Virus record (IMG/VR): IMGVR_UViG_3300036651_001461
Span: 1 to 21,928 of that record
Length of the DNA stretch: 21,928 nt
Source: a virus
Direction: 5' to 3' (one strand)
How positions within the stretch are numbered: the first letter of the stretch is position 1; the number at the start of each line of letters is the position of its first letter. The notes below the pieces were generated by a model, which had not been told where the DNA came from, searched no databases, and was given only the letters and a program-made list of their open reading frames with translations. The position numbers and the translations under genes are program-made. Shown here piece by piece: positions 3,575-19,753 of this stretch.

Positions 3575-4174
3575 ATGAACAAACTTATGAGAATCATCCG
3601 CGGCGACCTCCATGGTACCGGCGACATCAAGGGCGCGACCTACTTCATGTCGAACCTTAAAGTCCAGGTCCTCGACGCCAACGGCAACCCCAAGAAAGTC
3701 CGCCACTACTTCGGCTCTTCCCGGCTACAGAAGGCTATCTACAGCCTGATTTATCGCAACAAAACAATCCTTGACCTCGGCTCCGGTCTGGTCACCCACG
3801 CAGGCGTCCGCCTAATGTCCCAGGACACGGCAGTCACCGCCGGTGCAGCTACCCTGTCCGTCATGAAGAACCACGGTTCTGGCACTGGCGTCACCGCCGC
3901 CACAGCTACCGACACTGCCCTTCAGACAGCTATCGGCACCACAGCCACAGCTGGTTCCAACACTAACGCCGACGCTTCTCCGAACGCCACCATGACCTCC
4001 ACAGCTACCGTTTCCTACTCGGCGACTGCAGCAGTCACCGAATGGGGCCTGTTCAGCAGCACTACGCTCTCCGGCGCCACCATGTGGGACCACAAGGTCT
4101 TCTCGGCAGTCAACGTCGCGAACGGCGATTCCATCGCCTTCACCTACACGCTGACCATCAACAGCGGCGGCTAA
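3575..4174 (+). CDS. Virion appendage protein, Ala/Thr-rich (199 aa)
   Basis: This is a probable structural protein of the tail-fibre block. The first 70 residues are basic and mixed (LMRIIRGDLHGTGDIKGATY, KVRHYFGSSRLQKAIYSLIY). The rest is Ala/Thr/Ser/Gly-rich beta sequence: LSVMKNHGSGTGVTAATATD, TATVSYSATAAVTEWGLFSS, then a closing strand pair ending GDSIAFTYTLTINSGG. That C-terminal pattern (TEWGLF, a V-F-S-A-V-N-V strand, F-T-Y-T-L-T-I-N) is familiar from many uncharacterised phage structural proteins next to tail-fibre genes. The family name is not known to me and the role is inferred from neighbours. It has its own candidate promoter and a GGAAACACAAAATG leader. The next gene begins one base after its stop. 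Confidence 0.7.
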   Translation: MNKLMRIIRGDLHGTGDIKGATYFMSNLKVQVLDANGNPKKVRHYFGSSRLQKAIYSLIYRNKTILDLGSGLVTHAGVRLMSQDTAVTAGAATLSVMKNHGSGTGVTAATATDTALQTAIGTTATAGSNTNADASPNATMTSTATVSYSATAAVTEWGLFSSTTLSGATMWDHKVFSAVNVANGDSIAFTYTLTINSGG

Positions 4175-4175
4175 A

Positions 4176-5741
4176 GTGGCGCAACTCAGCACGCTAGCTG
4201 ATGATTTCCCAGGCACGACAGTAAATGCCAGCAGGTGGGGTACTGTAACCTTCCAGACGGGCGATTCAGCTAGTGTCGCGAATAATCAGCTTACTCTTAC
4301 GGCTACCCCAAGTGGGTACGCTTATGTTAGTACAAATAGCGACTTTAACCTTTCTAATAGTTCAGCTGCTCTGCAGTACATTGGAGATACGAGCGCTAGT
4401 AATGACTCTTACGATGGAAGTTTTTGGGTCACTGACACGACCGGTGGGGCGGCTGCCGAGTTTGGGTTCCTATTCCTTGACGGCGCCATCCAAACCTACT
4501 ATAACGGTGGCGCCGGACAGAGTATCCTCACCTCTTCTTTGCCAAAGACTGCTGGTATGTACTTACGGATTCGGGCAGATACCACCAATCTTTACACAGA
4601 TTACTCACCTGACGGGCAGACCTGGACAAACCTAGACGGCATCACCTATGCAACGGCTAACTTCGGTGGCCTCACCAGTGTCTTTCTAACAATAGAGAAT
4701 TATAATGACACGATTAGTGGCAACACCACACTTACCGTAGCTAATCTTAATATGCCCATAGTCGGGTTGTCTTCGCCGTCCAACGGGGGTTCGGTCACAT
4801 CAACCACACCCCAACTGCAGTTTATCGGGAACGAGCCCAACAGCGACACGCTGACCTACGAGGTAGAGGTGGATACAGCGAGTACGTTTGATGCTCAAGT
4901 GCCTTTGATTAAAAGCTTTACAACATTTGATACTTTTTATAGTGCGTTTGGCGGTGGAGGCGTGGCCCATTCTGCTGACCAAATAGGAAGGTCATTTAGT
5001 CCCTCATCAACGGGGAAGTTATCACAAATACAGGGGTATATACATGGCGGCGGCACTTTAACCGGCACACTCCAATTAGACATCTATGCCGCAACAGGTA
5101 GTTCAGGAAGTTATATTGGCACAGGAGCGGCTCTGGCCAGTTCTGATGTTGTTAATGCAAGTACTCTGCCAACGTCTACTAGTTGGGTCTCTTTTAATTT
5201 TAGTGGCACTAACCAGATAACCCTTACGAGTGGCACGGAATATGTCTATGTATTTAACCCGGACAACATGAACGCTTCTGGATATGTATCATTGGCGACG
5301 ACCACTTCCGCTACTGGTGATAGTCCGCAGAACGATATGCAGCTAGGATATGTGCCTTCGGCATTATGGAGCTCCTTGTCAACCAGCGCCTTAGCGTACA
5401 AATTATATTTTACGGGAACTCCTTTAATAGATGCCCTCTCCGCCTCAGGCGGCCACGATACGGCCCAGTTCAGTGACGTTACACATTCTGGGGACAGTAA
5501 CCCTTTTCCCAGCGGGGATACGACGGGCTTCACCGTCCCGTCTGGGGAGGCACTAACTAACGGTCTCACCTACTACTGGCGGGCCCGGGCCAAAGCGCCT
5601 TCGGGGACGAACACCTGGGGAGGCTGGAGTCCAGTGCAGCATTTCCTCACCGGCCATGTCTACACCAAGAGTACCACCGGTGGCGTATCTTTTGCGGGCG
5701 CCAACCACCGCGTTACCCACAAAATCCTTCGCATGGGGTAA
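4176..5741 (+). CDS. Tail-fibre-like protein: ConA-like lectin + interrupted Fn3
   Basis: The start is GTG, one base after the upstream stop, so translation probably depends on coupling. Residues about 8-195 (LADDFPGTTVNASRWGT to LTVANLNMP) resemble a concanavalin A/laminin-G-type sandwich. Residues about 198-243 (SSPSNGGSV, TYEVEVDTASTFDAQ) begin a fibronectin III-type domain, which resumes only at about 416-505 (GLTYYWRARA, WSPVQHF). In between, residues about 243-415 form a separate beta-rich domain (IGRSFSPSSTGKLSQIQGYI, LDIYAATGSSGSYIGTG, ITLTSGTEYVYVF). It resembles the jelly-roll domains called choice-of-anchor R in secreted proteins. The likely role is glycan binding on the host or a surface matrix. 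Both edges of the inserted stretch read PLI, and its DNA is more AT-rich than the virion genes. Confidence 0.75.
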   Translation: MAQLSTLADDFPGTTVNASRWGTVTFQTGDSASVANNQLTLTATPSGYAYVSTNSDFNLSNSSAALQYIGDTSASNDSYDGSFWVTDTTGGAAAEFGFLFLDGAIQTYYNGGAGQSILTSSLPKTAGMYLRIRADTTNLYTDYSPDGQTWTNLDGITYATANFGGLTSVFLTIENYNDTISGNTTLTVANLNMPIVGLSSPSNGGSVTSTTPQLQFIGNEPNSDTLTYEVEVDTASTFDAQVPLIKSFTTFDTFYSAFGGGGVAHSADQIGRSFSPSSTGKLSQIQGYIHGGGTLTGTLQLDIYAATGSSGSYIGTGAALASSDVVNASTLPTSTSWVSFNFSGTNQITLTSGTEYVYVFNPDNMNASGYVSLATTTSATGDSPQNDMQLGYVPSALWSSLSTSALAYKLYFTGTPLIDALSASGGHDTAQFSDVTHSGDSNPFPSGDTTGFTVPSGEALTNGLTYYWRARAKAPSGTNTWGGWSPVQHFLTGHVYTKSTTGGVSFAGANHRVTHKILRMG

Positions 5742-5764: not shown

Positions 5765-6562
5765 ATGGCACACCAAATAGCAGACCGGGTCCAGGAAACC
5801 ACCACCACCACCGGCACCGGTAGCCTGACGCTAGCTGGAGCAGTGACCAATTTCCAGACCTTCGATAGTGTCATGGCCACTGGCGACACGTGTGACTACT
5901 GTATCGTAGACAGCGCTCACAATGCCTGGGAAGTCGGGCTTGGTACTTTCACCGCGACGACCACGCTGGCCCGCACGACGGTCTATGCCTCTTCTAACGC
6001 CGGGGCAGCTGTCACCCTTGCCGCAGGGAGCAAAAGTGTGTTCATTACTGCTAGCGCCAACGCACTTAATAACTTTGCGGCTATTCCCGCATCTAGCACC
6101 GCTCCGGCAACACCTGATAACGGGGATTTTTGGCTTGATGAAGCCGATGCTACCGATAACGTAGCTGCAGCTGCCGTAGCAATAGGAAATCTCCTGTTTC
6201 CAGTTGGGTCTATCTATACAAATCTGACTAATGCCACGAATCCGGCTACACTACTAGGGTTTGGTACCTGGACTGCATTCAGTCAAGGCCGAGTCCCGGT
6301 TGGTAAAGCTGCCTCAGGCACTTTCGCTACGGCGGGGGCGACGGGAGGTGAAGAAACGCACACCCTGACCATAACGGAGATGCCAAGTCACAGCCACACT
6401 TTCTCCAACACATGGAACGTGTCAGGGAGTGTCGAAGTAGGAAGCGGCACATTCCGGTGGTATAACGACACAAGCGAGTCTACGAATAATACCGGTGGTG
6501 ATGGCCCCCACAACAACCTTCAACCGTATGTGGTCGTTTATATGTGGCAGAGGACAGCCTAA
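5765..6562 (+). CDS. Phage tail-collar protein (receptor-binding), copy 1
   Basis: This 265-residue protein begins at ATG 5765 behind AAAAGGAAACACAA. Residues 1-105 (AHQIADRVQETTTTTGTGSL, GDTCDYCIVDSAHNAWEVGL, SKSVFITASANALNN) form an N-terminal module common in phage tail proteins, probably the virion-attachment part. Residues about 140-265 are a tail-collar/fibre-tip domain: LFPVGSIYTNLTNATNP, FGTWTAFSQGRVPVG, GGEETHTLTITEMPSHSHTF and the closing HNNLQPYVVVYMWQRTA. The H-x-H in EMPSHSH is the type of histidine pair that binds metal in T4 fibre tips. Paralogous collar domains occur at 6562 and 18174. Its stop shares bases with the next start (TAATG). Confidence 0.85.
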   Translation: MAHQIADRVQETTTTTGTGSLTLAGAVTNFQTFDSVMATGDTCDYCIVDSAHNAWEVGLGTFTATTTLARTTVYASSNAGAAVTLAAGSKSVFITASANALNNFAAIPASSTAPATPDNGDFWLDEADATDNVAAAAVAIGNLLFPVGSIYTNLTNATNPATLLGFGTWTAFSQGRVPVGKAASGTFATAGATGGEETHTLTITEMPSHSHTFSNTWNVSGSVEVGSGTFRWYNDTSESTNNTGGDGPHNNLQPYVVVYMWQRTA

Positions 6563-7182
6563 TGCCTAAACTCAAGACTTATGATGCCAGCACAAGTACG
6601 TGGGTGACCCTTGCTGACGTTGCTACCGTAGGCCCAACAGGCGCTACTGGACCTACGGGTGCGACTGGAGCGACTGGCGCAACGGGGGCGACTGGAGCAG
6701 CTGGGACTAATGGACTAGGAGTACCTTCCGGCGGCACGACAAACCAAGTTCTCAAAAAGAACTCAAGTACGAATAATGATACTTCATGGGCTAGTCTCGT
6801 GGACCTAGTTTACCCAGTTGGCGCGATTTACATGAGTGTCGTCAACACAAGTCCCGCTACTCTGTTTGGCGGCACCTGGAGTGTCTGGGGGACTGGTCAA
6901 GTGCCAGTCGGCGTCGATACCGGGCAGACCGAGTTTGCAACCGTCGAACATACTGGCGGAGAAAAGACACACACTCTGACGACGACCGAAATGCCAAGCC
7001 ACGCCCATGACCAATATGTGACTGCCAACAGTGGTAGTGCCGCCATCCGTAGAGACTACCAGTCGGATGGTGCGTCCGCCAACTTCCCTCAGGGTAACCA
7101 AGGTGGTTCAACGGGCGGTGGCGGTGCACATAATAACCTCCAGCCGTACATCACCTGTTACATGTGGAAGAGGACTGCTTAA
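6562..7182 (+). CDS. Tail-collar protein with collagen-like stalk, copy 2
   Basis: The start is ATG 6562, which overlaps the upstream TAA; a GTG at 6544 in the same frame is less likely. The product is 206 residues. A short N-terminal head (PKLKTYDASTSTWVTLADVA) is followed by about nine Gly-X-Y triplets (GPTGATGPTGATGATG and on to residue about 51), a collagen-like trimerising stalk. The linker VPSGGTTNQVLKKNSSTNN is common in phage fibres. Residues about 82-206 are a collar domain: LVYPVGAIYMSVVNTSPATL, FGGTWSVWGTGQVPVG, EMPSHAHD with the H-x-H metal pair, and HNNLQPYITCYMWKRTA. It is probably a second, alternative tip for host binding, stacked after copy 1. Confidence 0.85.
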   Translation: MPKLKTYDASTSTWVTLADVATVGPTGATGPTGATGATGATGATGAAGTNGLGVPSGGTTNQVLKKNSSTNNDTSWASLVDLVYPVGAIYMSVVNTSPATLFGGTWSVWGTGQVPVGVDTGQTEFATVEHTGGEKTHTLTTTEMPSHAHDQYVTANSGSAAIRRDYQSDGASANFPQGNQGGSTGGGGAHNNLQPYITCYMWKRTA

Positions 7183-7418: not shown

Positions 7419-7438
7419 AAGGAGGCATTGGGTCAGAT

Positions 7439-9313
7439 ATGCTCGGCTTCACCCCGATTTCCAACGCTCCACTTGATTCCACTGGAGGCAACGTCTTCCA
7501 GAAAGTTCTGGCGGGGGTCGCCAGTTTTCTGGGCGGTATCGCCCACACCCACCGGTTTGCGAAGGCTTTGACCGCCGCCTTATCGTTTGTAGGTAGCGTC
7601 AAGCGCAACCTCACCAAGAAACTGGCCGCAACTCTGAATTTTACTGGTGCCATATCCAAGGTCTGGTCTACCATCTCAGCGGGCCTGAGTTTTGCGGGTA
7701 GTCTTGGTGTGGTATACATTCCCCCGGCCATTGCCCAGGCCCTCTCGGGCGGCTTATCATTCGTCGGGGCAGTTAGCCGTCGCACAGCCAAACACCACAC
7801 AGCTAGTCTAAGTCCGGCGGGGGCGATAACACGCGGATTAAACAGGGGTCTAACTGCCTCCTTGTCCTTTGTAGGCGGGGTCGCAAAATCTACGGCTAAG
7901 AAGTTAAGCGCTAGTCTCAGCCCGAGCGCGGTGCTCACTCAAATACGGGTCTTTGTCCAGACGTTCACGGGGGTTTTATCATACACCGGGAGTCTGGCAC
8001 GCGTTGCTCACTACGCCCGAGCACTGACGGCGACCCTCAGTTTTACCGGCGCCATCCAGCGGGCAATCAGCAAGAAGCTAGTAGCCGTACTGTCGTTCAG
8101 CGGCACTGTCAAGAAGCAGTTAAGTAGGGTACTTAACTCCACTGTCTCTTTTGCGGGCAGCGTGCTACACCCCCACAACGCCGTCAAAGCCTTCAGCGCA
8201 GCACTCTCCTTCAGCGGTAACTTCGTCCGCGGCGCCGCCCACTTCCGCACCCTGACGGCTGGGCTAGGGTTCACCGGCAGTATCAACCGGCTATCCACCC
8301 ACTTTGTGTCTGGTGCGCTGGGCCTGAGTGGCGCCGTGACCCAACAGGCCAGTCGACTCCTTACTGGGACGGTAGCGTTTAGCGGGAAGGTCAGCCGGGC
8401 CGTCAGTCATAAACTCGGCGCCGCCCTCAACTTCGTCGGCAGCCTGCTCCGGGGGGCAGCCTTCTTCCGCAATCTGACCGGGAGCCTGTCCTTCACCGGT
8501 AGCCTTAGTCAAGCTCGAGCATTTCTCAAAAGCTTGACGGCTACCCTGAGGTTCAGCGGTGCGCTGTCATCTGTATGGGGGATTGTCTCTTCCTTCCTGT
8601 CTTTCTCCAGTAGTCTCGTCGCCGTCTTTCTCCCCTCCGGTGCCGTCCAGAAGATAGTAACTTCTAATTTGTCGTTTACTGGAGGGCTGACCCGTCAGTC
8701 GGTATTCCACCGGGCGTTGAGTGCTGGGTTGTCATTCTCGGGGAGCATTCGTCGGAATCTCAGCAAACACTTGAATGCCAGTTTCAGTTTTGCAGCTACT
8801 TTCTCCAGGGCGTTTCCTCAACTACTAGTTGCTAGTCTCGGTTTCAGTACCAACTTACGGCGAGCCACCACGGCTAAACTAACAAGTGCCCTGACCTTCG
8901 CTGCCAACCTTATCCCCGGTAGTTTCTTTCACCGCAGTTTCAGCGCGGCACTGACATTCGTTGGTAACATAACACCAGGACGGCTCATCTGGACGCGGAT
9001 TCAAACCACCATATTTGGCAATAGTACCCAGGGGAAGGTCTTGGGTAACGGCACGACCAGTAGCGTTCAATCCTCCAATACGGTAGATAAGGTCAGCTCC
9101 GGCACCAAGACGACCACCATCCAGACGGGCATCGTCAGCGCGGCGGAAAACGGCAGCACCACCACCGACCAGGTAGCGGGCGGGACAAATGTTGCACAGG
9201 CCGATGGAGGTGCTACAATAGAGTCAGTAACGTCAGGAACAAAAACAAATGAAACGAAAAGCGGCGGTACTTCTACCACCCTCACCGGTAGCGACAATCA
9301 GGGAGCGGTCTGA
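7439..9313 (+). CDS. Large repeat protein: ~26 tandem 18-residue repeats
   Basis: The 624 residues are almost wholly repeats. Residues about 19-535 hold roughly 26 units, mostly 18 (range about 17-22) long, with the consensus LTAxLSFTGSLxRxxxKx: a hydrophobic strand-like half (LSFTGSL) and a basic Ser/Thr/Lys/Arg half. Residues 536-624 switch to a Gly/Thr/Ser-rich region with three T-x-[DE]-x-V-x-x-G-T copies (about 548, 575 and 593). No catalytic motif or signal peptide is visible. The regular alternation suggests a beta-solenoid or beta-hairpin fibre, and the neighbours (collar proteins, BppU-like protein) suggest a tail appendage. I do not recognise a named family. The GGAGG site (7421-7425) lies an unusually long 13 bases from ATG 7439, and no closer in-frame start exists. 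The stop overlaps the next start (TGATG). Confidence 0.75.
   Translation: MLGFTPISNAPLDSTGGNVFQKVLAGVASFLGGIAHTHRFAKALTAALSFVGSVKRNLTKKLAATLNFTGAISKVWSTISAGLSFAGSLGVVYIPPAIAQALSGGLSFVGAVSRRTAKHHTASLSPAGAITRGLNRGLTASLSFVGGVAKSTAKKLSASLSPSAVLTQIRVFVQTFTGVLSYTGSLARVAHYARALTATLSFTGAIQRAISKKLVAVLSFSGTVKKQLSRVLNSTVSFAGSVLHPHNAVKAFSAALSFSGNFVRGAAHFRTLTAGLGFTGSINRLSTHFVSGALGLSGAVTQQASRLLTGTVAFSGKVSRAVSHKLGAALNFVGSLLRGAAFFRNLTGSLSFTGSLSQARAFLKSLTATLRFSGALSSVWGIVSSFLSFSSSLVAVFLPSGAVQKIVTSNLSFTGGLTRQSVFHRALSAGLSFSGSIRRNLSKHLNASFSFAATFSRAFPQLLVASLGFSTNLRRATTAKLTSALTFAANLIPGSFFHRSFSAALTFVGNITPGRLIWTRIQTTIFGNSTQGKVLGNGTTSSVQSSNTVDKVSSGTKTTTIQTGIVSAAENGSTTTDQVAGGTNVAQADGGATIESVTSGTKTNETKSGGTSTTLTGSDNQGAV
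7496..9043 (+). repeat. Array of ~26 protein-level 18-codon repeats
   Basis: Units of about 54 bp (51-66) repeat within the 7439 gene. They are conserved at the protein level (LxAxLSFxGxLxR) but strongly diverged in DNA, so they look like an old, selected array rather than a recent slippage product. Some units carry 3-4 extra residues before the next one (for example the unit with VVYIPPAIAQA and the one with FLPSGAVQK). Confidence 0.7.
9192..9219 (+). promoter_or_regulatory. Strong candidate promoter inside the repeat gene
   Basis: TTGCAC (9192-9197), a 16-base spacer, and an extended -10 TGCTACAAT (9211-9219). A start near 9226 would transcribe the BppU-like gene (9313) and the ejection genes behind it. 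It is the best -35/-10 pair I see in the window. It falls in the coding sequence of the C-terminal Gly/Thr repeats, so chance cannot be excluded. Confidence 0.5.
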
Positions 9314-9639
9314 TGGCAGCGCTTAAAACAGTCGCCGGGAACACCGCACCGCAGTACCAGATTACCTGTGCCCGACCCGATGGCACCGTCATTAACCTGA
9401 CCAGTTGTACGGTCAAGGTGTATCTCTATCTTAATAAGACCCAGCAAAACACCGGCCACGAATCGTCCACGGTCAGTATAATCAACCCTCTAACAGGGGC
9501 TATCGGCTGGCAACCGGCCACCGGTGACTTCAGCCAGAAGGGCCAGTACCGGGCCAACATCCAGATTACCTATCCCGACGCCAGCGTCGAGGTGCTGTTC
9601 GACCAAGCCTTATTCCAAGTCAGGAGTCTTATCCAATGA
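9313..9639 (+). CDS. BppU-like N-terminal Ig-fold protein (108 aa)
   Basis: ATG 9313 overlaps the upstream TGA and has GGGAG 7 bases before it. The protein reads as one beta-sandwich: NTAPQYQITCARPDGTVINL, then SCTVKVYLYLN, a central N-P-L-T-G-A-I-G-W-Q-P-A-T-G-D and finally KGQYRANIQITYPDASVEVL. The order 'ligand strand, D-G-T-x-x-x-L-T, N-x-x-T-G-x-x-x-W, G-D-x-x-x-x-G-x-Y-x-A' matches the N-terminal domain of baseplate upper protein BppU and its many stand-alone relatives. In lactococcal siphoviruses that domain anchors receptor-binding proteins to the baseplate. Here it may link the repeat fibre or other appendages to the tail. The stop overlaps the next ATG (ATGA). Confidence 0.7.
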   Translation: MAALKTVAGNTAPQYQITCARPDGTVINLTSCTVKVYLYLNKTQQNTGHESSTVSIINPLTGAIGWQPATGDFSQKGQYRANIQITYPDASVEVLFDQALFQVRSLIQ

Positions 9640-18173: not shown

Positions 18174-18974
18174 ATGAGTGACGTCTCCGCGGTTACCAAA
18201 TACTTTTCCACCGCTAACGAGGGGTTTATCACCACCACCTCCGACCCGGTGAGTAGCGGCGCGACCAGCGTGCCCTTGAGTAGTATGGCATCTCTTACCG
18301 ATGGCAGTGTCTATGTCGGTATCATCGAACCCGGGACGACCAATGAGCAGACCTTTACGGGTACCGTCTCGCAAGCCGCCACAGCTATCATCGACGTTGT
18401 CTGGACGCGGGGGACAAACGTGGCACACGTTGCAGGTGTCTCGGTCGTGGATTACGTTACAGGCACCGATTGGAACATGATGGTGGCAGGTATCTTAAAG
18501 ACCCTCAACCAGGACGGTACCCTCAAGGCGAGCGTCCTTAACGCTGTCTGGCCAGTGAACTCCGTCTACGTCGAGACCGGCGGGATTAACCCCGGTACTA
18601 CCTTAGGCTTCGGTACTTGGGTTGCCTTCGGCCAGGGACGTACTCTCGTCGGTGCGGGCACCTCGGACCAAGCTTTTGCGGCCGGAGCGACGGGCGGTGA
18701 GAGTACGCACCTCCTGACGACGCCTGAGATGCCCGCTCACGCTCACGGCGTTAACGACCCGGGCCACGCCCATACGTATACAGCCTGGCGTCAAGGGACC
18801 TATCCAGGAGGTGGTATCCTCGGTGGCGGAGCTTTATATGGCAACCCACCTATCTCTGCCGGAGCAACGACCGGTTCGGGGACGGGCATTTGGCTCAGTA
18901 ATACAGGCGGTGGTGATGCACATAATAACCTCCAGCCGTACATTGTCACCTACTTCTGGCGGAGGTCAGCATGA
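18174..18974 (+). CDS. Receptor-binding protein with tail-collar tip, copy 3
   Basis: The product has 266 residues. Residues 1-118 (SDVSAVTKYFSTANEGF, LTDGSVYVGIIEPGTTNEQT, VDYVTGTDWNMMVAGILKTL) form an N-terminal domain that is repeated almost motif for motif at the start of the next gene, so it is probably the virion-docking part. Residues about 122-266 are a collar tip of the same family as the genes at 5765 and 6562: VWPVNSVYVETGGINPGTTL, FGTWVAFGQGRTLVG, GGESTHLLTTPEMPAHAHGV with two H-x-H pairs (HAH twice), and HNNLQPYIVTYFWRRSA. A 27-base stretch near its end (18917-18943) is identical to 7125-7151. The start has a weak AAAAGAAA site. The stop overlaps the next ATG. Confidence 0.85.
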   Translation: MSDVSAVTKYFSTANEGFITTTSDPVSSGATSVPLSSMASLTDGSVYVGIIEPGTTNEQTFTGTVSQAATAIIDVVWTRGTNVAHVAGVSVVDYVTGTDWNMMVAGILKTLNQDGTLKASVLNAVWPVNSVYVETGGINPGTTLGFGTWVAFGQGRTLVGAGTSDQAFAAGATGGESTHLLTTPEMPAHAHGVNDPGHAHTYTAWRQGTYPGGGILGGGALYGNPPISAGATTGSGTGIWLSNTGGGDAHNNLQPYIVTYFWRRSA

Positions 18975-19753
18975 GTGATGTTTCAAGTGTCGTTAACTTC
19001 TTTTCGACGGCTAACGAAAACTTTAGTGCTAACCTGAGCACTGGTATCCTGGCAAGTGCTACCGAAGTCCCCCTGAACCACACGACTACCCTCACGGACG
19101 GCTCGGTGTTTGTCGGAATCGTCGAGCCCACCGGCACGAAACAACAGGCCTTCACCGGCACCGTAGACCTGGCCAATAGCCAGATTAAGGATGTTGTCTG
19201 GACGCGCGGGAGTAACGTCGGCCATGACGCGGGCGTACTGGTCGTGGACTACGTCACTGGGACGGATTGGAACATGCTCGTTACCGGAATCCTGAAATTT
19301 GCGAACCAAGATGGTAGCCTCAAAGAGGTGAGTGGTAGTTGGGTGGCGTACACCCCGACGTTGACGAACATCACCCTCGGCAACGGCACCCTGACCGGTC
19401 GCTACAAACAAATTGGGAAGCTGGTTTTCTTCGAGGTCACCCTGACCTTTGGCAGCACCACCACGCTAGCTACCGTCGCTAACTACACGCAAAGTCCCCG
19501 CTTTAGCCTACCGGTCACCGGGCACGTCTCGTCCTGGACCTGCTCTGACCTAGCTAACTATAACGGTGCGCCGCTGCCTTGCGCTGCCCGGCTGACCTAC
19601 GATGCTTCCGCTGCTAGTGGTAGCGGCTCCGCCGCCGCCCCGCAGTGGTACGATTCCGATAACTTCTGTGATACCGCTCTCAGCTCAGCTTCCGCTAACT
19701 TCCACGACGTCGGTGACAAAGGCGTCTGGTCAGGCTGTTACGAGGCCGCCTGA
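18971..19753 (+). CDS. Receptor-binding protein, paralogous head with a different tip
   Basis: ATG 18971 overlaps the preceding TGA, with GGAGG 5 bases upstream. The 260-residue product starts with a 118-residue domain (SDVSSVVNFFSTANENF, LTDGSVFVGIVEPTGTKQQA, VDYVTGTDWNMLVTGILKFA) paralogous to that of the previous protein, roughly 60% identical by eye. Its C-terminal part is unrelated to the collar tip: SWVAYTPTLTNITLGNGTLT, GRYKQIGKLVFFEVTLTFGS, RFSLPVTGHVSSW. That is a beta-rich module seen in many phage tail spikes ('W-x-x-Y-x-P-x-x-x-x-x-x-x-G-N-G-T-x-x-x-x-Y-x-x-I-G-K'). The likely role is a second host-binding tip docked at the same or an equivalent virion site. Confidence 0.8.
   Translation: MSDVSSVVNFFSTANENFSANLSTGILASATEVPLNHTTTLTDGSVFVGIVEPTGTKQQAFTGTVDLANSQIKDVVWTRGSNVGHDAGVLVVDYVTGTDWNMLVTGILKFANQDGSLKEVSGSWVAYTPTLTNITLGNGTLTGRYKQIGKLVFFEVTLTFGSTTTLATVANYTQSPRFSLPVTGHVSSWTCSDLANYNGAPLPCAARLTYDASAASGSGSAAAPQWYDSDNFCDTALSSASANFHDVGDKGVWSGCYEAA

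Follow-up and report, generated by a model that had tools for sequence, protein, structure and literature searches.

The virus DNA analysed here (the window, 21,928 nucleotides, positions 1 to 21,928 of IMG/VR record IMGVR_UViG_3300036651_001461) encodes a protein, P0001, most of which consists of tandem LSFTG units of 18 or 20 residues. Judged by sequence, LSFTG is a widespread, uncatalogued repeat family, with homologous arrays in 49 other contigs; the family is new, though its general kind, the repetitive beta shafts of phage appendages, is already known. We see roughly an even chance that P0001 serves as an exchangeable shaft of beta repeats, with its charge adjusting how the virion binds surfaces; the virion appendage that it would belong to is most likely a fibre or whisker associated with the tail.

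The array gene and its repeat units

The gene and its parts lie in the window as follows.

7420-7425: ribosome-binding site of P0001, AGGAGG-type
7439..9313, plus strand: array gene P0001, 624 aa, ATG start
7508..8992, plus strand: 26 LSFTG units of 18 or 20 residues each, residues 24 to ~518
9056..9310, plus strand: C-terminal Ser/Thr/Gly-rich tail, residues ~540-624, of mixed charge, with approximate 9-residue mini-repeats

An iterated position matrix recovers 26 units in P0001, whereas 100 shuffles average 8.6 units and never exceed 16, and the total unit score is 536 where the highest of 100 protein shuffles reaches 225, which confirms the original prediction of an open reading frame carrying about 26 units of 18 residues. 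The consensus reads L T A/G x L S F x G x L x K/R x x x K/R x. Successive units are 18 or 20 residues apart nearly throughout; spacings of 17 and 23 break the pattern around residues 79-102, as do spacings of 27 and 14 in a row around residue 393. Autocorrelation peaks at lags 18, 20, 36, 38, 58 and 76. Residues 1-540 contain 52 K+R and a single D+E, so the basic character claimed for the units is borne out.

At the DNA level, Tandem Repeats Finder detects no unit array, its sole match being a 12-base repeat of 2.1 copies, and identity between unit cores is 39% for the protein and 46% for the DNA. Between units, codon positions 1, 2 and 3 match at 0.51, 0.57 and 0.28, and 0.28 is also the random value for position 3, which argues that the units are old and have been kept by selection on the protein. 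The same figures agree with the earlier view that the DNA had diverged while the protein pattern was retained.

A Gly/Thr-rich end bearing T-x-[DE]-x-V-x-x-G-T copies had also been proposed. That region is real, but its element is better called a 9-residue mini-repeat. Short tails of such mini-repeats follow the array in many relatives: across 36 post-array tails, lag 9 (z=14.6) and lag 18 (z=13.8) stand out with no other lag comparable, and the mini-repeat is individually significant at p<0.05 in 15 of these tails. The P0001 tail taken on its own is not significant (p=0.18 for 9-residue periodicity), and it looks like an element that is probably akin to the mini-repeats of its relatives. Mini-repeats of this kind, which are apparently a separate repeat type, are visible at the array C-termini of L032, L089, L028, L059, L035 and L036 (for example DTRLTVTLA, ASVLAVTQT and STTLNVTAT).

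Distribution and anatomy of the LSFTG family

IMG/VR contigs were scanned with a pair of degenerate DNA patterns, each covering two units spaced by 18 or 20 residues, which matched 96 and 54 stretches. When all fetched loci were searched with a unit HMM (E<1e-5) and contigs were counted from both patterns, arrays emerged in the 49 further contigs; array-bearing contigs span ~4 to 170 kb, and array GC ranges from 0.31 to 0.75. P0001 has the features that define the family, namely tandem units with L1, A/G3, L5, F7, G9, L11 and K/R13 at 18-20-residue spacing.

Searches of reference collections gave a uniformly different picture. No family or homologue of P0001 was found in Pfam, PHROGs, NCBIfam, PDB sequences, 50,697 GenBank phage records or 72,556 plasmids, and as a single-protein query P0001 found no viral relatives. 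In cultured phages, the best match of one relative's array (L083) has E=0.2. A tblastn search with P0001 reaches ~70 fetched viral loci at E<1e-5 and phage-database size, so the database negatives are not a problem of sensitivity. A stricter DNA pattern, which matches 37 of 47 arrays, found no LSFTG array in 84,980 species genomes. We rejected a host or prophage origin, as the 45 genome stretches that fit this pattern include no array and only two simple-repeat reading frames scored. No characterised-family profile matches the P0001 repeats, and across the family the curated cut-offs of Pfam, PHROGs and NCBIfam are not reached, with only sub-threshold or chance partial matches. A Pfam Replicase match of P0001 (24.4 vs a cut-off of 26) and GH97_C matches of two relatives, L083 and L134 (19.4-23.8 vs a cut-off of 25), were discarded as sub-threshold repeat artefacts. 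No known fibre family matches the repeats by sequence, and nothing on the unit was found in the literature searched.

The original prediction that the unit is undescribed thus stands insofar as no named family in Pfam, PHROGs, NCBIfam or PDB sequences covers it, while the notion of an architecture peculiar to one genome falls with the 49 further contigs. At the sensitivity used here, the LSFTG family is characteristic of uncultivated viruses, and because it is missing from the protein-family libraries searched it is invisible to standard annotation.

Over 963 units, the family consensus is L1 T2 [A/G]3 T4 L5 S6 F7 x8 G9 A10 L11 T12 [K/R]13 R14 T15 S16 [K/R]17 A18. Over ~12 residues, odd positions are hydrophobic and even ones small and polar, and the unit closes on two conserved basic positions, with K/R at position 13 conserved in 93% of 18-residue units. 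Spacings are most often 18 (588), followed by 20 (159), 19 (50) and 22 (28), and 785 of the 853 are even against 68 odd. Alternating residue classes combined with even insertions mean that successive units all keep the in/out alternation of a beta strand, and, by this pattern, even spacing is as expected for continuous beta alternation. A universal super-period of four units (18, 18, 18, 20) was considered, since it is seen in several arrays, yet the count observed is also attained in 48 of 1000 permutations and we dropped it.

Charge is conserved as well. Each unit carries ~1.9 K+R, a number that does not vary with GC (r=0.09), and K/(K+R) tracks GC (r=-0.70), which argues that charge rather than codon usage is under selection. 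D and E are nearly absent from family units, and unit number runs from ~8 to 54 per protein. Such variation in length would suit a purely structural spacer, in which rod length matters (as a tail or neck extension, or a whisker) and the basic residues do no more than offset the charge of acidic neighbours or help packing, with no ligand involved. In its favour, the array locus also holds acidic or neutral arrays, so that charge is unnecessary for the basic role of the locus. We consider this reading somewhat unlikely, since the conservation of K/R13 and the independence of K+R from GC go beyond what solubility alone needs; the about neutral charge of the putative partner described below also counts against it.

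Genomic setting and exchange at the array locus

The array lies in a cluster of virion genes.

1548-2411: major head protein (MCP), ~5 kb upstream of the array
3575..4174, plus strand: fibre-like protein, 199 aa (phrog_5417; weak tail fiber phrog_4176)
4176..5741, plus strand: Ig/beta-sandwich protein, 521 aa
5765..6562, plus strand: collar-type protein with a Gp10_C domain (Pfam PF21939, 1.3e-29)
6544..7182, plus strand: collar-type protein with a collagen-like stretch and Gp10_C (Pfam PF21939, 8.8e-33)
9313..9639, plus strand: BppU_N-like Ig-fold protein, 108 aa (Pfam BppU_N, 23.6 bits)

Virion genes in the window are thus ordered head, fibre-like, Ig, two Gp10_C collar, array, BppU_N-like and SU10-type adaptor, and the downstream part of the cluster also includes a protein with weak similarity to phage stabilization proteins. 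The earlier placement of the array between collar proteins and a BppU-like protein is borne out, with two Gp10_C collar-type genes ahead of P0001 and a BppU_N-like one after it. Genes similar to the 199-aa fibre-like protein occur in many array-bearing contigs (41 blastp rows), and residues 216-411 of the Ig protein resemble the non-repeat N-terminal part of two array proteins, those of L046 and L043.

In other contigs, the neighbours of the array include capsid, terminase, portal, prohead protease and head-tail adaptor genes. So many head and packaging genes, together with the MCP gene 5 kb upstream in the window, could indicate that the array decorates the capsid surface or forms a head fibre rather than part of the tail. 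We regard this as improbable, given that the genes flanking the array in the window, Gp10_C collar and BppU_N-like, are both of tail or baseplate types, and the earlier guess of a tail appendage is plausible.

Elsewhere in the window, a third Gp10_C collar-type protein (18174-18974) sits at the far end of the cluster of virion genes and is adjoined by a paralogue that has the N-terminal half in common with it (18971-19753). The 1442-aa product of 10707-15035 matches neither Pfam nor PHROGs and by position would be a large virion protein. Upstream of the head genes lies an HNH endonuclease gene (188-574), a related copy of which is on the opposite strand in L006.

Laminin-G/lectin-like domains are typical of surface-binding virion proteins. 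They are found N-terminally, outside the repeats, in the array proteins of L032 (6e-17), L046 (1e-15) and L134 (3e-7). Their presence in several homologues counts against P0001 being a polyanion- or membrane-active effector, such as a DNA-binding, internal virion or lytic protein that uses the cationic 18-residue unit. The excess of K/R over D/E in residues 1-540 and the alternating hydrophobic/cationic pattern would fit such a role, but beyond the laminin-G domains, the acceptance of acidic arrays at the same locus and a strict beta alternation with S/T/G that is unlike membrane-active helices make it very improbable.

The BppU_N-like gene passes the Pfam PF10651 gathering score only marginally (23.6 vs 23.1 bits). 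Its start overlaps the array stop in the window (TGATG), which suggests that the two genes are translationally coupled. The gene follows an array in at least 12 loci: all 12 matches to it at E<1e-3, three of them from near-identical contigs, lie directly downstream of an array, and none lies elsewhere in those loci. A recognisable BppU-like gene adjoins only 12 of 41 arrays, by a profile whose seed was taken from such genes, and 6 of 18 aligned downstream or related proteins match BppU_N at E<=0.01. A weak match of the BppU-like protein to a Methanoculleus virus (0.006) adds nothing. This protein is likely the partner of the array protein. The N-terminal domain of BppU (PF10651) from lactococcal-type phages resembles the single-domain product found here; the array itself is not BppU, and in these podovirus-like contigs the domain is a separate protein of ~105 aa.

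Where the downstream gene is conserved, the array changes length. L037, L059, L032 and L110 carry 24, 23, 15 and 12 units, respectively, beside BppU-like genes that are 58-74% identical among the first three and assigned by profile in L110, and a further contig with the gene order of the window (L033) has 13 units where the window has 26. Unit number in relatives therefore does vary, a check that the original prediction had proposed.

The repeat itself also changes. The cleanest pair is L101 and L190, between which the BppU-like protein is 61% identical, the adaptor 44% and the collar 36%. The ends of their array proteins are similar (N-terminal z=8.2; C-terminal z=5.7, the latter in low-complexity sequence), and their middles are unrelated (z=0.7). 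The L101 middle is cationic (29 K/R, 0 D/E) and that of L190 acidic (12 K/R, 33 D/E), with a period near 18 in both. The acidic repeat protein of the latter (L190:2981-3742, DxVxVAD type, period ~18) thus lies in the slot of an LSFTG array. At an equivalent locus, L020:1492-2532 encodes 346 aa with neutral, Pro-containing repeats of 22/24 residues (TASLTLSTFAPTVxVS), and SPSAS low-complexity arrays lie at the array locus beside a BppU-like gene at L021:579-3023, L021:3414-4307 and L195:2231-4573. These SPSAS, FAPTV and DxVxVAD repeats share the genomic slot of LSFTG and, where it was measured, an even period (18 in L190, 22/24 in L020), and in L190, L021 and L195 a BppU-like gene follows downstream as it does at some LSFTG arrays. 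They differ from LSFTG in sequence and charge, with no detectable homology between the middles. By these comparisons, LSFTG is one among several interchangeable repeat types at the array locus. More tentatively, it is possible that uncultivated phages have a common appendage slot in which beta-repeat rods of distinct charge (cationic LSFTG, acidic, neutral Pro-rich and SPSAS) replace one another while the attachment ends on either side stay conserved.

Predicted fold and candidate function

Single-chain AF2 models of two blocks, one from the window (pLDDT 69.7) and one from the regular array of L117 (76.3), fit right-handed beta-helices to within 2.4-3.3 A over ~150-165 residues when superposed (VIA Z 9-13), and left-handed ones at an rmsd of ~12 A. 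The models are, with moderate confidence, right-handed beta-solenoids of about one unit per coil. As a description of these models, an antiparallel meander read from the AF2 DSSP strings was rejected on the strength of this superposition. The structures on which the blocks superpose include Tapirin, HxuA, the phi29 gp12 appendage and the K2-2 tailspike, with which LSFTG has no sequence similarity, and Foldseek with the models found no PDB match at E<=0.001. The regular solenoid or hairpin array that had been anticipated does therefore appear, as a beta-solenoid, in a predictor biased to solenoids for repeats: AF2 gives confident solenoids even for random perfect repeats (PMC11795689), so the models lend the idea of a regular beta rod only weak support. 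The even spacing is just as compatible with antiparallel hairpins arrayed in an oligomer.

The left-handed beta-helix has a hexapeptide period (18 residues per coil), and in P0001 lag 6 is raised (0.124) while lag 12 is not (0.071). The triple beta-spiral has a ~15-residue repeat with a G/P turn, and P0001, with its unit of 18/20, has no signal at lag 15 (0.071). The adenovirus fibre shaft, a triple beta-spiral of 22 shaft repeats (PMC8869412), resembles P0001 in its tandem strand-turn units and their similar number per chain (22 vs 26), but unit length and chemistry differ and no PDB sequence match was found. The triple-stranded beta-helix of T4 gp5, built of VxGxxxxx octads (PMC4576200), likewise forms a rod of a phage virion from a repeating sequence with beta alternation, whereas LSFTG has a period of 18/20 and is strongly cationic, and lag 8 gives no autocorrelation signal in P0001.

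We infer the virion location, oligomer, fold, partner contact and ligand of P0001 as follows. LSFTG units would stack into an extended beta rod, either a solenoid or a hairpin sheet in an oligomer, which would be held at the virion by its own ends and the BppU-like partner. Array length, as the number of units, would set its reach, and the ladder of K/R would let it bind anionic polymers of the cell surface, such as LPS, teichoic acid, capsule or slime, multivalently and with low specificity. A cassette swap would then bring a new length and surface chemistry while leaving the attachment ends unchanged. Alternatively, the K/R-rich 18-residue repeats could have nucleic acid or a protein partner as their target instead of the cell surface.

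The repeat family occurs in dozens of viral contigs that differ widely in GC, and it is missing from the libraries, cultured phages and prokaryotic genomes searched. If P0001 is an exchangeable appendage shaft, the family would provide a testable way into how uncultivated phages adjust their adsorption, and further shaft types could be sought by way of the slot and its BppU-like gene. It would also be a new source of building blocks made of regular beta repeats. If the locus does act as a slot for cassettes, a single recombination step would let a phage lineage alter its virion surface in both length and electrostatics.
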